Below the pieces are notes generated by a model. That model worked only from the letters and a program-made list of their open reading frames with translations. It did no database searches and had not been told where the DNA came from. From NCBI GenBank assembly GCA_902518965.1, contig CABYIQ010000001.1:124001-188000 (forward strand): 64,000 nt of DNA, given 5' to 3'. The position numbers were made by a program, and so were the translations under genes. Shown here one piece after another: positions 28,274-57,894 of the stretch. This DNA is from an uncultured SAR116 cluster alpha proteobacterium (GTDB lineage Bacteria; Pseudomonadota; Alphaproteobacteria; Puniceispirillales; Puniceispirillaceae). Numbering within the stretch: position 1 is the first letter of the stretch; each line of letters opens with the position of its first letter.

Positions 28274-28897
28274 TCAGCCTGTTTTTCCAGCTGAGAGGCC
28301 ACGTTCACGCAAAAACGCCAATAAAGGCAGCATGGGCAGCCCCAATATATCATAATTTGACCCAGCAATGTCAGTAAAAAGATGCGCACCTCCCGTTTCA
28401 ACCTGATAAGCACCGGGCGTAGACATACAAGCTTCCGGAAAACCAGCAATATAATTGTCAATCTCAGCTTCGGATAGAGTTCGCATCAACAGGGTTGATG
28501 TTGAAAGATGATGCCATATCCGCTTTTGATCATGAAACAGAACACAAGCTGTAATCAACACATGCTTCCGGCCCTGCAAACCCAAAAGATGTGCCCTTGC
28601 CTCAACCAAGGTTTTAGGTTTGCTGAGCAGCTTTTCAGCACAAACCAAAATTTGATCGCACCCTAAAACATAACCAATGTGTTGTTGACTGACCGCCTCA
28701 GCTTTAAGTTCAGCCAACAATATCACAAGGTCTTCAAAAGAAAACCCATCTTGCAACGCACTATCTTTGATGGCCTCTTCATCAATATCTGCTGGGGAGA
28801 TCTTAAACAGAAGCTTCGCTGCATCTAACATTCTAGCACGTGTCGGGCTTGCTGAAGCAAGGATTAGAGGCTGGCCAGATAAAGACCATTTAATCAT
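28274..28897 (-). CDS. Maf-family nucleotide pyrophosphatase
   Basis: LILASASPTRARMLDAAKL; VLGCDQILVC; GFPEACMSTPGAYQVETGGAHLF. Confidence 0.92.
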   Translation of the reverse strand: MIKWSLSGQPLILASASPTRARMLDAAKLLFKISPADIDEEAIKDSALQDGFSFEDLVILLAELKAEAVSQQHIGYVLGCDQILVCAEKLLSKPKTLVEARAHLLGLQGRKHVLITACVLFHDQKRIWHHLSTSTLLMRTLSEAEIDNYIAGFPEACMSTPGAYQVETGGAHLFTDIAGSNYDILGLPMLPLLAFLRERGLSAGKTG

Positions 28898-29751
28898 GGA
28901 GCTGTCTCGTCAGAAATTTCTGCGTTTAATTTCTCTTCACGCTTATTCACATATAAATGAAGAATAGCAGCCGCTGTTTCCTCAATAGACCGGCGTGATA
29001 CATCCAAAACTGGCCAATTTTGTCCAGAAAATAACAGACGCGCTGACTTCAACTCATCATTTATATTGTCGAGATCTGCATAAGTGTCATTCTGGGTGTC
29101 GGACATATGTTGCAAGCGGTTCCGTCTGACCATGGATAATCTTTTTGCATCTGTTGTCAGGCCAACAATAAATATGTCAGGGGCGTTTTCAAGCAAATGC
29201 AAAGGAAAATCTACGTTTGGTACTAGAGCATAATTGGCGACGCGATAACCACGGTTGGCCAAATACATTGATGTCGGTGTCTTCGAGGTGCGTGATACAC
29301 CAACCAACAAAATTTGTGCATCCTTTAACCTGTCCATGTTTAACCCATCATCATGATTCACGGCAAAATCAACTGCTGCCATCCTATCAAAATAGGCTTT
29401 ATCCAGTTTGTGTTGGCCACCAGGCTGGGTGTTTTGCTGATATCCAAGGACAGAGCTAAGCATATCCATCAACGGGTCAAGAACTGACAGGCTGGGAATG
29501 TTGCTTTCTGAGCAAAGCCGTTCGATCAATCTCCTGATTTCAGGATCTACAACTGAATACAGAAGAATCCCAGGATTGCGCGTTAAAGCTGATGAAATTG
29601 TTTCAACGTGAGCAGGTGTACGAACCAAGGTCCAAATATGCTCAAGTATCTGCACATCAGGAAATTGGGCCAGCGCAGCACGCGCAACTTGATGGACAGT
29701 TTCGCCTGTGGAATCAGAAACCAAATGAATGTGTAATGATGAATGAGCCAT
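28894..29751 (-). CDS. ppsR: Pyruvate, phosphate dikinase regulatory protein (DUF299 kinase/phosphorylase)
   Basis: HLVSDSTGETVHQVARAALAQFP; LVGVSRTSKTPTSMYLANRGYRVANYALVP. Confidence 0.92.
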   Translation of the reverse strand: MAHSSLHIHLVSDSTGETVHQVARAALAQFPDVQILEHIWTLVRTPAHVETISSALTRNPGILLYSVVDPEIRRLIERLCSESNIPSLSVLDPLMDMLSSVLGYQQNTQPGGQHKLDKAYFDRMAAVDFAVNHDDGLNMDRLKDAQILLVGVSRTSKTPTSMYLANRGYRVANYALVPNVDFPLHLLENAPDIFIVGLTTDAKRLSMVRRNRLQHMSDTQNDTYADLDNINDELKSARLLFSGQNWPVLDVSRRSIEETAAAILHLYVNKREEKLNAEISDETAP

Positions 29752-30117
29752 GGTTTTGGTTGTTATATATCCAATGCGTGTTCGTTATTTGTTACAAATA
29801 GCCTCAGCATACATATCTTTGATGTTGAAAACATCCGTCCCAGGGGACAGTTTCAAAAATTGTGCAGAATTATCCTTTTTATGAACATTTTATTAAATTT
29901 ATAGCTTCAACTGAAAAACATAAATTATCTAGGTTGACAATGTGGGGATAAAATTACCAAACAAACAACATTATTGATTTATCTTGATCAAATTTTATTT
30001 CTTCAAGCGTGGTTAGTGGATAACTTTGTGGTTAAAATTCTTGAATACTGTATTTCAAGTTTCCACAGGAACTGCAAAACCATCAATTTTTATAGTTTAA
30101 ATATAGAAGTATGAAAT
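29752..30117. other. Probable chromosomal replication origin (oriC)
   Basis: 366 bp AT-rich non-coding gap between divergent ppsR and hemE; near-consensus DnaA boxes TGGGGATAA (29943-29951), AGTGGATAA (30015-30023), GTTTCCACA (30059-30067); genes to the left mostly minus strand, to the right mostly plus; hemE-adjacent position as in Caulobacter and Rickettsia; parS cluster 3-7 kb away. Confidence 0.75.
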
Positions 30118-31146
30118 ATGAAATTAATTGAAACCTTGTCTGGAAAACGCTCAAATCCACCTCCTATTTGGATTATGCGCCAAGCTGGACGCTACCTTCC
30201 TGAATATAGGGCAGTCAGACAGACGGAACCTGACTTTATCTCCTTTTGTTTAAATCCAAAAAAGGCCTGTAAAGTAACAGTCCAACCAATAAAACGCTAC
30301 CAATTTGACGCGTCCATAATATTCTCAGATATACTTCTAATACCATGGGCAATGAACAGAAATGTTCGTTTTATAGGTGGTATAGGGCCTAAGTTAGACG
30401 TTTTAACTTCTTTAAAAGATATTGAGATTTATGCTAATAAAGACCTTTCAAGTAAATATGAAGCTGTTGGAAAAGCTGTAAAATTGACCAGACAGACTTT
30501 ACCAAATAAAACGGCTCTTATCGGATTTTCAGGTGCCCCTTGGACGTTGATGACCTATTTACTTGAGGGAGGCAGCTCGCGCGATTTTGAAAACACAAAA
30601 TCATTTTTGTGGCAAAAACCTAATGAAGCAATTGAGATTATCAGAATTTTGACTGAGAAAATAGCTGAATTCCTAATTGTTCAAGCAAATCAAGGTGTAA
30701 ACGTTTTGATGTTGTTTGACAGTTGGGCAAGCGCTGTTCCCGCTAGCTGGCGCAATGAAATAATTTACAAACCACATCAAAATATATTAGAGATTTTACG
30801 GAAAAACGAAGTTTACCTCCCCTTTATTGGCTTTCCAAAAGGTATTGGTGAGGGGCTAATTAACTATGCAAACGAAGTTGAGACTAATTGCATTGCTCTT
30901 GATCAAAATACCGACCCTTTTTGGGCAAACCGAGTGCTACCTTCAAATATAGCTATCCAGGGAAATTTAGATCCTTTATGTCTTGTAACAGGGGGTCAGC
31001 AAATGAAGGATCAAATTAGCAGAATAATAGATTGTTTTGCAGACAGACCACACATATTTAACTTAGGACATGGTGTTGTGCCACAGACACCACCGGAACA
31101 TATCCAAGACCTTGTTGATTTCATCAGAATTAAAACAGGTGAATAA
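30118..31146 (+). CDS. hemE: Uroporphyrinogen decarboxylase
   Basis: PPIWIMRQAGRYLPEYRAVR; IIFSDILLIPWAM; GFSGAPWTLMTYLLEGGSSRDF; FNLGHGVVPQTPPEHI. Confidence 0.98.
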   Translation: MKLIETLSGKRSNPPPIWIMRQAGRYLPEYRAVRQTEPDFISFCLNPKKACKVTVQPIKRYQFDASIIFSDILLIPWAMNRNVRFIGGIGPKLDVLTSLKDIEIYANKDLSSKYEAVGKAVKLTRQTLPNKTALIGFSGAPWTLMTYLLEGGSSRDFENTKSFLWQKPNEAIEIIRILTEKIAEFLIVQANQGVNVLMLFDSWASAVPASWRNEIIYKPHQNILEILRKNEVYLPFIGFPKGIGEGLINYANEVETNCIALDQNTDPFWANRVLPSNIAIQGNLDPLCLVTGGQQMKDQISRIIDCFADRPHIFNLGHGVVPQTPPEHIQDLVDFIRIKTGE

Positions 31147-33010: not shown

Positions 33011-33511
33011 TCATATTTGTTTCGATTCTAAATCAATAAGCCATTGTTTTCTCTTAATATTATTCGGATCTCTTGGGTTCGTCTTGTTTCCGCCACTGTA
33101 GTTGTCAAATTTGCCGTCAGCTTGTACTATCCGGTGGCATGGGAGAATAATTGGCAATGGGTTACGCTTGCAGGCCTGACCAGCTGCTCTGGCCGCTTTA
33201 ATATTACCCCATCTTTGTGCAAATTCTTTATAGGTTATTACATCACCGAATGGCACCGTGGCTAACACAGACAACCATTTCACAAGAGCGGGGCTGTAAC
33301 TAGATAGATCAAGCGGAACTGTAAAATCTGCTAACTGGCTGCCCAAGTAGCACTTAATCTGTTTAACTGTTTCACGTGAAATCTCATTTTCCCGATCGGC
33401 CCTTAGGAAGGGTTTTTGTTGCCAATCAAGTCTAAATAGGCCGATGTCATTTGAACCGGCGCGCATGTAACCAAGTGGAGAGTGAAATGAACTTGTATAC
33501 ATGGTGTCCAC
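33011..33511 (-). CDS. ogt: Methylated-DNA--[protein]-cysteine S-methyltransferase
   Basis: PFGDVITYKEFAQRWGNIKAARAAGQACKRNPLPIILPCHRIVQADG (PCHR active site). Confidence 0.94.
   Translation of the reverse strand: MDTMYTSSFHSPLGYMRAGSNDIGLFRLDWQQKPFLRADRENEISRETVKQIKCYLGSQLADFTVPLDLSSYSPALVKWLSVLATVPFGDVITYKEFAQRWGNIKAARAAGQACKRNPLPIILPCHRIVQADGKFDNYSGGNKTNPRDPNNIKRKQWLIDLESKQI
33368..33383. promoter_or_regulatory. parS-like site (TGTTTCACGTGAAATC)
   Basis: Core TGTTTCACGTGAAA matches the conserved parS consensus; lies inside ogt. Confidence 0.8.
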
Positions 33512-35000: not shown

Positions 35001-35016
35001 TGTTTCACGTGAAACA
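35001..35016. promoter_or_regulatory. parS site (TGTTTCACGTGAAACA)
   Basis: Perfect 16 bp palindrome in the mnmE-mnmG intergenic region. Confidence 0.95.
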
Positions 35017-37026: not shown

Positions 37027-37650
37027 TTGACTTTCAATCATATTTTTCCATCTGAAAGCACCCAGCAAGAGGTATGTGCTTATCTCAATGTTTCACGTGA
37101 AACAGAAGCAAAACTTGAGACTTTTGTCAGTTTGCTGAAAAAATGGCAACAGCGCATTAACCTTGTATCTTCAAAAACCCTGCCTTATGTCTGGCAACGC
37201 CATATTTTGGATTGTGCGCAATTGATCACTCATTTGCCTGTTAGACCGGGACGGATCATGGACATTGGGTCTGGGGCAGGGTTGCCAGGCTTGATCCTTG
37301 CTATATTGACAGAATTTGAAGTGCATTTGGTCGAATCAGATACGAAAAAAGTAGCGTTTATGCGAACGGCCCTGGCTAAACTTGATGTGCATGCAACTAT
37401 TCATCACGCCCGTATTGAAGAGTTGCCGTTTTTAGATATTGATATCATTACAGCGCGTGCGCTTGCACCACTCTCAAAATTAATTCAGCTGACACAGAAA
37501 CAGGATCATCCTAGACTTTCCTATCTGTTTTTGAAAGGAAGGGGGGTAAATGAGGAATTGACCGAACTGCCGACATCGTCAACACTAACAGTAATATCCT
37601 ATCCCAGTATAACTGATCAGGATTCTTCAATCATATATCTAAAAAGATAA
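37027..37650 (+). CDS. rsmG: 16S rRNA (guanine527-N7)-methyltransferase
   Basis: LLKKWQQRINLVS; RHILDCAQL; IMDIGSGAGLPGLILAI; apparent TTG start. Confidence 0.96.
   Translation: MTFNHIFPSESTQQEVCAYLNVSRETEAKLETFVSLLKKWQQRINLVSSKTLPYVWQRHILDCAQLITHLPVRPGRIMDIGSGAGLPGLILAILTEFEVHLVESDTKKVAFMRTALAKLDVHATIHHARIEELPFLDIDIITARALAPLSKLIQLTQKQDHPRLSYLFLKGRGVNEELTELPTSSTLTVISYPSITDQDSSIIYLKR
37089..37104. promoter_or_regulatory. parS site (TGTTTCACGTGAAACA)
   Basis: Perfect palindrome embedded in the rsmG coding sequence (NVSRETEA). Confidence 0.95.
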
Positions 37651-37682
37651 AAATGTCTATTAATCAGAAGGTTAATTGTTTT

Positions 37683-38459
37683 ATGTCTGCTAAAATTATA
37701 GCTGTGGCGAACCAAAAAGGAGGCGTTGGCAAGACAACGACCGCTGTGAACCTGTCCACAGCTTTGGCGGCCTGTGGTATGGGTGTTTTGCTGGTTGACT
37801 TTGATCCGCAAGGTAATGCCAGCACAGGGTTAGGGGTAGATCCTCAAGCACGTGAGATGAACAGCTATCGGCTGGTTACTGGGGAATGCAGCGTAACTGA
37901 TGCGATTGTCAAGACAGAAGTTCCCGGTCTGTCTCTTATAACCGCAACAATGGATTTGTCTGCCGCTGAAGTCGAATTGAGCTCTTTGGACAGACGCGAA
38001 TATCGGTTGGCAGATCAGCTTTCTGCTCTTCAAGCTGATTTTAATTACATTCTTATAGATTGTCCGCCGTCGCTCGGTTTACTGACAGTAAATGCACTTT
38101 GTTCCGCGCATACTGTAATTGTGCCGCTTCAATGTGAATTTTACGCTCTCGAGGGTCTAGCACAGCTGACACAGACTATTACAACTGTACAGTCTAGTTT
38201 GAACCAGGAACTTGTGCTGCAGGGTATAGTTCTGACTATGTATGACACACGTAACAAACTGTCTGAGATGGTCGAGGCTGATGTGCGTGCCCATTTTGGT
38301 GCTACCGTTTATCAAACCGTTATACCGCGCAATGTACGCATTTCTGAGGCCCCATCATTTGGCCAGCCTATATTGGTGTATGATTTAAAATGTGCTGGCT
38401 CACAGGCTTATGCTGCCTTGGCAGCTGAACTTCTTAAACAGGAACAAAAAGTCGCATGA
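37683..38459 (+). CDS. parA: Chromosome partitioning ATPase ParA
   Basis: KIIAVANQKGGVGKTTTAVNLSTALAACGMGVLLVDFDPQGNASTGLG; ATG at 37683 (MSAKI) preferred, track start at 37653. Confidence 0.98.
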   Translation: MSAKIIAVANQKGGVGKTTTAVNLSTALAACGMGVLLVDFDPQGNASTGLGVDPQAREMNSYRLVTGECSVTDAIVKTEVPGLSLITATMDLSAAEVELSSLDRREYRLADQLSALQADFNYILIDCPPSLGLLTVNALCSAHTVIVPLQCEFYALEGLAQLTQTITTVQSSLNQELVLQGIVLTMYDTRNKLSEMVEADVRAHFGATVYQTVIPRNVRISEAPSFGQPILVYDLKCAGSQAYAALAAELLKQEQKVA

Positions 38460-39406
38460 CAGACAGAATACTACCAGGAAAATCCTCGAGAAAACAAGAT
38501 GCACAACGCCTTGGCCGTGGTTTGTCAAGCTTGTTAGGTGATTCGCCTATTCAGGCTGCCACTAAAGGGTCAGCACACACTGCTAATGCTATTCGTCAAG
38601 ATGCTGACAATGCTGGGCGTGATATCAAGGCTTTACCTATAGAATGGATTGTGCCTGGGCCATGGCAACCGCGGCGCATTTTTGATTCTGATGAGCTAAA
38701 AGAGTTGGCAATTTCCATAAAAAGCCGTGGCTTGTTGCAGCCTGTGATTGTCCGACCTCATCCAAACCGCAACTCCCAGTTTCAACTGATCGCGGGCGAG
38801 CGGCGTTGGCGCGCTTCACAAATGGCTGCTTTGCACGAGATTCCGGCAATAATTTCAAATTTTGAGGATAAAGAAGCGACTGAATTATCGCTCATTGAGA
38901 ACATTCAGCGTCGTGATTTGTCTGTTATTGAGGAAGCTGAGGGTTATCAGGTTCTGTTGGAAAAACACGGATACTCACAGCAAGAACTTGCGGATATTGT
39001 GGGTAAATCAAGATCACACATAGCAAATATTGGACGGCTTTTATCATTGCCGCAGGGAATAAGGGACAAGATTATCAAACGCATTTTAACGATGGGTCAA
39101 GTCCGCCCTTTGATTGGCCGTGAGGATGCTGAGCAATTAGCGGAAAAGATCATCAGCGACAATCTGTCTGCCCGCGATGTTGAGGCGTTGATCAAATCAC
39201 AAAGCAGATCCAAAACAGCGTCACCACAGCAGGAAAAATCGTCTGACATCAAGGCCTTGGAGATTCGTGCCCGCACCGAACTTGGCTTATTAATGCGTTT
39301 GGACTGGGATGAAAAGAATGACAGAGGCCAAGTGGCATTAAAGGTAACCTCGCTTGAGCAGCTTGAGGATCTTTTGTCCAAAATCGGCCTGAGGCAGGCA
39401 AAATAG
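38456..39406 (+). CDS. parB: Chromosome partitioning protein ParB
   Basis: RLGRGLSSLLGD; PWQPRRIFDSDELKELAISIKSRGLLQPVIVRP; IAGERRWRASQMA; LIENIQRRDLS. Confidence 0.98.
   Translation: MTDRILPGKSSRKQDAQRLGRGLSSLLGDSPIQAATKGSAHTANAIRQDADNAGRDIKALPIEWIVPGPWQPRRIFDSDELKELAISIKSRGLLQPVIVRPHPNRNSQFQLIAGERRWRASQMAALHEIPAIISNFEDKEATELSLIENIQRRDLSVIEEAEGYQVLLEKHGYSQQELADIVGKSRSHIANIGRLLSLPQGIRDKIIKRILTMGQVRPLIGREDAEQLAEKIISDNLSARDVEALIKSQSRSKTASPQQEKSSDIKALEIRARTELGLLMRLDWDEKNDRGQVALKVTSLEQLEDLLSKIGLRQAK

Positions 39407-56700: not shown

Positions 56701-57894
<1,194 letters not shown>

Follow-up and report, generated by a model that had tools for sequence, protein, structure and literature searches.

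A very probable replication origin between ppsR and hemE

The AT-rich gap between the divergent genes ppsR and hemE is, judged from its sequence and that of its relatives, almost certainly the chromosomal origin of replication (oriC) of this bacterium. It carries an enriched cluster of DnaA boxes, lies at a GC-skew minimum a few kilobases from parS, and ends next to hemE in a box followed by a phased triplet array. The window, by which we mean the whole stretch of 64,000 nucleotides analysed, corresponds to C1:124001-188000, contig C1 being 189,055 bp long. It belongs to a MAG (G000) of 1.94 Mb in 70 contigs, rated 76% complete; a complete relative from the same family measures 2,753,527 bp.

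The putative oriC occupies exactly positions 29752-30117, 366 bp, and is bounded on the left by ppsR (28894-29751, minus strand; Kinase-PPPase PF03618, COG1806/DUF299) and on the right by hemE (30118-31146, plus strand). An earlier note on this DNA had described a 366-bp AT-rich gap between divergent genes, and both its extent and its composition were borne out. GC content was 29.5% in the gap versus 46.7% for the contig, and only 0.03% of 366-bp segments were as AT-rich. Rfam and tRNA scans of the gap gave no match. The same note had described transcription as mostly pointing away from the gap on both sides, which held only in part. It was true of the left side, where 74% of ORF length over 154 kb lay on the minus strand (falling to 59% within the nearest 30 kb), and of the first ~9 kb to the right, but not of the whole right-hand 35 kb, across which the plus strand accounted for only 47% of ORF length.

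Origins bounded by hemE and COG1806 have been described for Caulobacter crescentus (Cori) and Rickettsia prowazekii (Brassinga et al. 2002, as cited in PMC1914354). As those origins are presented there, the gap resembles them in its boundary genes, similar length, AT richness and DnaA boxes. It differs from them, on the same account, in having no TTAA-N7-TTAA, no consensus IHF site and no GANTC, and in belonging to a MAG in which CtrA was not detected. Of the features that mark a hemE/COG1806 oriC, the boundary genes, a box cluster, above-average AT content and a GC-skew shift were found at the gap. Its assignment as an ordinary alphaproteobacterial hemE/COG1806 oriC, at a location already known for the class, is well supported. 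A literature search on SAR116 or Puniceispirillum origins found nothing relevant. With the origin fixed for an uncultured lineage, growth rates derived from peak-to-trough coverage can be anchored.

The gene arrangement was examined in a sample of 61 genomes of the order, G000 included, in 57 of which hemE was found. The divergent ppsR-hemE pair was present at 39 of 52 order loci, with a gap of 250-560 bp. Five of the other 13 loci were cut by contig ends, and eight belonged to family f4, in which ppsR is not beside hemE. Class-wide, the pair was found at 40 of 80 loci. At the f4 loci (L131-L138) ppsR is not a neighbour of hemE, yet a box and phased triplet array beside hemE are kept, so that the origin element appears separable from the ppsR neighbourhood.

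DnaA boxes in the gap

Three boxes on the minus strand each have one mismatch to TTATCCACA: TTATCCCCA at 29943-29951 (named in the earlier note as TGGGGATAA), TTATCCACT at 30015-30023 (named there as AGTGGATAA) and TTAACCACA, also written TGTGGTTAA, at 30027-30035. The hemE-proximal box, GTTTCCACA at 30059-30067, is on the plus strand, has two mismatches, and points to the predicted unwinding region. The three near-consensus boxes that the earlier note had listed (29943-29951, 30015-30023 and 30059-30067) are all present. A fourth, the 30027-30035 box, was missing from its list; it stands in tandem with the 30015 box at 12-bp spacing. The gap contains no perfect DnaA box.

The number of boxes with at most one mismatch in the window gap, three, compares with 0.19 expected from shuffles (P about 0.0005). 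The scan for box clusters with mismatches allowed covered contig C1, and across its 189 kb a density of at least three boxes (at most one mismatch) per 366 bp was reached in the ppsR-hemE gap only. Outside the gap, the two strong boxes nearest to each other, at G000:C12:2747-3008, were considered as a second origin and rejected, as they lie inside an IspD/IspF-type ORF (named by eye).

Enrichment was also found order-wide. The 47 gaps analysed held 154 boxes with at most one mismatch versus 8.2 expected in shuffles, an approximately 19-fold excess. The commonest were TTATCCACA, with 39 occurrences versus 0.2 expected, and TTATCCCCA, with 25 versus 0.2; the latter variant was 119-fold enriched over shuffles in the order's gaps. 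Because TTATCCCCA is enriched across these gaps, TGGGGATAA is a recurrent box variant. In the place of AGTGGATAA/TTATCCACT (30015-30023), relatives G004 and G006 have an exact TTATCCACA. The DnaA of the window genome is intact, with N-terminal, ATPase and DNA-binding domains encoded.

A trio-like array beside the hemE-proximal box

Downstream of the hemE-proximal box the window reads GTTTCCACA-GGAA-CTG-CAA-AAC-CAT-CAA, followed by TTTTTATAGTTTAAATATAG. The trio-like array (CTG CAA AAC CAT CAA, 30072-30086, plus strand) contains four phased C, at positions 5, 8, 14 and 17 after the box, in the register seen across the order; the strand bound by DnaA would be its complement. The AT-rich stretch that follows, 30087-30117, reaches to the hemE start codon and is the likely DNA unwinding element.

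The array is a property of the order. A plus-strand box was present in the last 100 bp before hemE in 29 of 50 gaps, versus 7.8 in shuffles, and alignment of these 29 gaps on the box gave the consensus box-RGCA-CTA-CWA-AAA-CWW-CWA-CC-AT-rich. Within the order's array, C stood at 59% in phase versus 11% off phase and G at 1%, neither of which was seen in reverse-strand controls. Runs of at least four C[AT][AT] triplets occurred in 15 of 50 gaps on the forward strand versus one on the reverse, mostly 42-65 bp before hemE. In class-wide gaps G was depleted (9% versus 34% C) and the phase was hardly present. The order offers some 30 natural origins in which a triplet array is clearly anchored on a box.

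This succession of box, spacer, periodic strand-asymmetric array and AT-rich DNA is like that of the DnaA box and DnaA-trio system (Richardson 2016; Pelliciari 2021, PMC8287927), where DnaA, once loaded on the box, takes hold of the complementary strand. The likeness extends to the box-proximal triplet, which in the order is mostly CTA (3'-GAT-5'). The search used in PMC8287927 demands adenine in the middle of the trio, whereas many trios of the order lack it: further from the box, CAA or CAT (3'-GTT-5' or 3'-GTA-5') is frequent. An exact search for CTA-only trios yielded stretches of at least three in just four genomes. Deviant DnaA-trios lacking the middle adenine were suspected by the authors of PMC8287927, and the order supplies a concrete candidate set for them.

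Under the published strict rule, a DnaA box with no more than two mismatches must have three or more 3'-NAN-5' trios no further than 16 bp from it. No such arrangement was found in the G000 gap in either orientation. In the order, the rule picked out 29 of 50 gaps in the forward and 38 in the reverse orientation, and is unspecific in AT-rich gaps; the strict BUS rule was dropped as evidence, since the reverse strand matches more often than the forward. Because the window genome falls short of a rule that is itself unspecific, the array is not filed as a proven member of the trio module. It is nevertheless likely to work like the box and DnaA-trio module, as a variant of it.

Taken together with the hemE-proximal box, the array makes a trio-like opening step at this place probable. 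It could instead be that the origin opens without trio-like unwinding at this box and that the array reflects some other constraint, for example a hemE leader or promoter. The weakness of the window box (two mismatches), the failed strict rule and the A, not T, that many order members have in the middle of the top-strand triplet all fit such a reading, and it retains an appreciable, though minor, probability. However, the array is 3-periodic, strand-specific and held in fixed register to the plus box throughout the order, and it persists in f4, where ppsR is not next door. The orientation from box through spacer and trios to AT-rich DNA also matches the module of PMC8287927.

With a trio-like opening step, initiation may proceed as follows. 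DnaA would bind the minus-strand boxes (29943, 30015, 30027) and the plus-strand hemE-proximal box (30059-30067), and from the latter an oligomer would grow towards hemE, onto the complement of 30072-30086 (3'-GWW-5'). By stretching the triplet strand, the oligomer would open the AT-rich DNA at about 30087-30117, both the direction of unwinding and these boundaries being predictions. The opened DNA would then permit helicase loading, and two forks would depart in opposite directions. ParB on parS 5-7 kb away, together with ParA, would segregate the new origins.

GC skew and parS

Cumulative GC skew, which the earlier note had proposed as a check, agreed with an origin at the gap. As the MAG is incomplete and in 70 contigs, skew for the window genome was taken from the single contig; for complete relatives it was computed from sampled stretches. 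For the 189,055-bp contig, the minimum was at position 29404 of the window, a distance of 348 bp from the gap. In G013, skew changed from minus to plus at the gap, the switch falling in the interval 1.77-1.85 Mb; a local minimum stood at 1,808,564, and hemE starts at 1,808,903. In G020 the sign changed from minus to plus at the gap too; a local minimum was found at 1,491,844, and hemE occupies 1,490,358-1,491,365 on the minus strand. In each of these genomes the reverse switch lay roughly half a chromosome off. G037 showed a sign change near the gap, in only rough agreement. Skew in G007 was noisier: regionally it was lowest at 708,512 and not at hemE, and 771,036 was a local minimum only.

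Two perfect parS sites (TGTTTCACGTGAAACA), at 35001-35016 and 37089-37104 (both plus strand), are the only ones in the G000 assembly. They lie 5-7 kb from the gap, beside parA (37653-38459, plus strand) and parB (38456-39406, plus strand). All perfect parS sites of G007, G020, G037 and G043, and 8 of the 18 in G013, were likewise 3-11 kb from the ppsR-hemE gap. This clustering is independent evidence for the location of the origin. A third parS-like site in the window, at 33368-33383, has two mismatches (TGTTTCACGTGAAATC) and is nearer to the origin than both perfect sites. The ten other perfect sites of G013 (contig C1) are scattered around the chromosome; the relatives have two to four in all.

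The placement of the origin between ppsR and hemE, as the earlier note had it, is thus upheld by the contig skew minimum, the skew of relatives, parS at 3-11 kb and the conserved boxes. Could the gap merely serve ppsR and hemE as a bidirectional promoter region, with chance look-alikes of DnaA boxes and the origin elsewhere? Both genes must indeed have their promoters there, counts of strict motifs can be misleading in AT-rich DNA, and one promoter-like site was found in the gap, on the minus strand, which is fewer than the 2.2 in shuffles. Chance look-alikes would not explain the order-wide box enrichment, nor the coincidence of the skew minimum and parS with the gap, and the contig has no second cluster of at least three boxes. 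We consider a promoter-only gap very improbable. Least probable of all is an origin nearby but outside the gap, for instance at parAB/parS or near dnaA. In its favour, dnaA is on the same contig (C1:81972), parS is only 5-7 kb off and skew resolves the switch to kilobases at best. Against it, the skew minimum is 72 kb from dnaA, no box with at most one mismatch occurs upstream of dnaA (C1 82.9-84.5 kb), the contig has no other box cluster, and in studied bacteria parS flanks the origin and does not form it.

CtrA, IHF and GANTC

The gap that we take as oriC contains no full TTAA-N7-TTAA, as the earlier note had observed in reporting no clear CtrA site. Its conclusion that a Caulobacter-style CtrA block is unsupported gained from the finding that no CtrA orthologue was detected in the MAG (76% complete). 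Loose sites of the form TTWW-N7-TTWW (four, overlapping, versus 1.6 in shuffles) were set aside as uninformative in AT-rich DNA. A CtrA model search at E<=1e-60 gave no match in G000 or in G004, G005 and G006, which are closely related to it, these four genomes being 64-77% complete, and matched 29 of 61 genomes, all below the model's own cut-off. A match was absent in families f3 and f4 too, and present in most other f1 and f2 genomes. The absences in G000, G004, G005, G006, f3 and f4 could reflect loss or incompleteness. For f4, loss or strong divergence of CtrA is likely, because its genomes are 88-100% complete.

No IHF site (WATCARNNNNTTR or WATCAN5WTR) was matched in the window gap; the loose form was found in 16 of 50 order gaps. 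An IHF site is among the origin criteria of PMC1914354, by which some elements may be absent from a given genome.

GANTC is also absent from the window gap, which is not unusual by itself for a single gap. Across the gaps of f1 and f2, however, it was depleted (11 versus 34.4 expected), whereas in other alphaproteobacterial ppsR-hemE gaps (loci from L145-L224) it was enriched (173 versus 76.6 expected). Regions upstream of hemE without ppsR were likewise depleted (47 versus 104 expected), which indicates that, for GANTC, the order's gaps resemble ordinary DNA and lack origin-type enrichment. The depletion provides a natural contrast to the methylation-linked cell-cycle control of Caulobacter. 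The CcrM RAMA domain was found in 57 of 61 genomes and GcrA in 54 of 61, with both present in G000.

It is conceivable, though we advance it with some doubt, that the origins of the order open at variant 3'-GWW-5' trios, often with T for the middle A, and have in addition lost GANTC though CcrM and GcrA were kept, initiation being uncoupled from CtrA and CcrM. The variant trio array and the lack of GANTC enrichment merit further attention. In the window, a 397-aa open frame for a CcrM-type methyltransferase has its RAMA domain at 57595-57885 (plus strand), which is ~27 kb from the origin; in G007, G008, G013, G020, G037 and G043 this domain lies ~27-33 kb from hemE.
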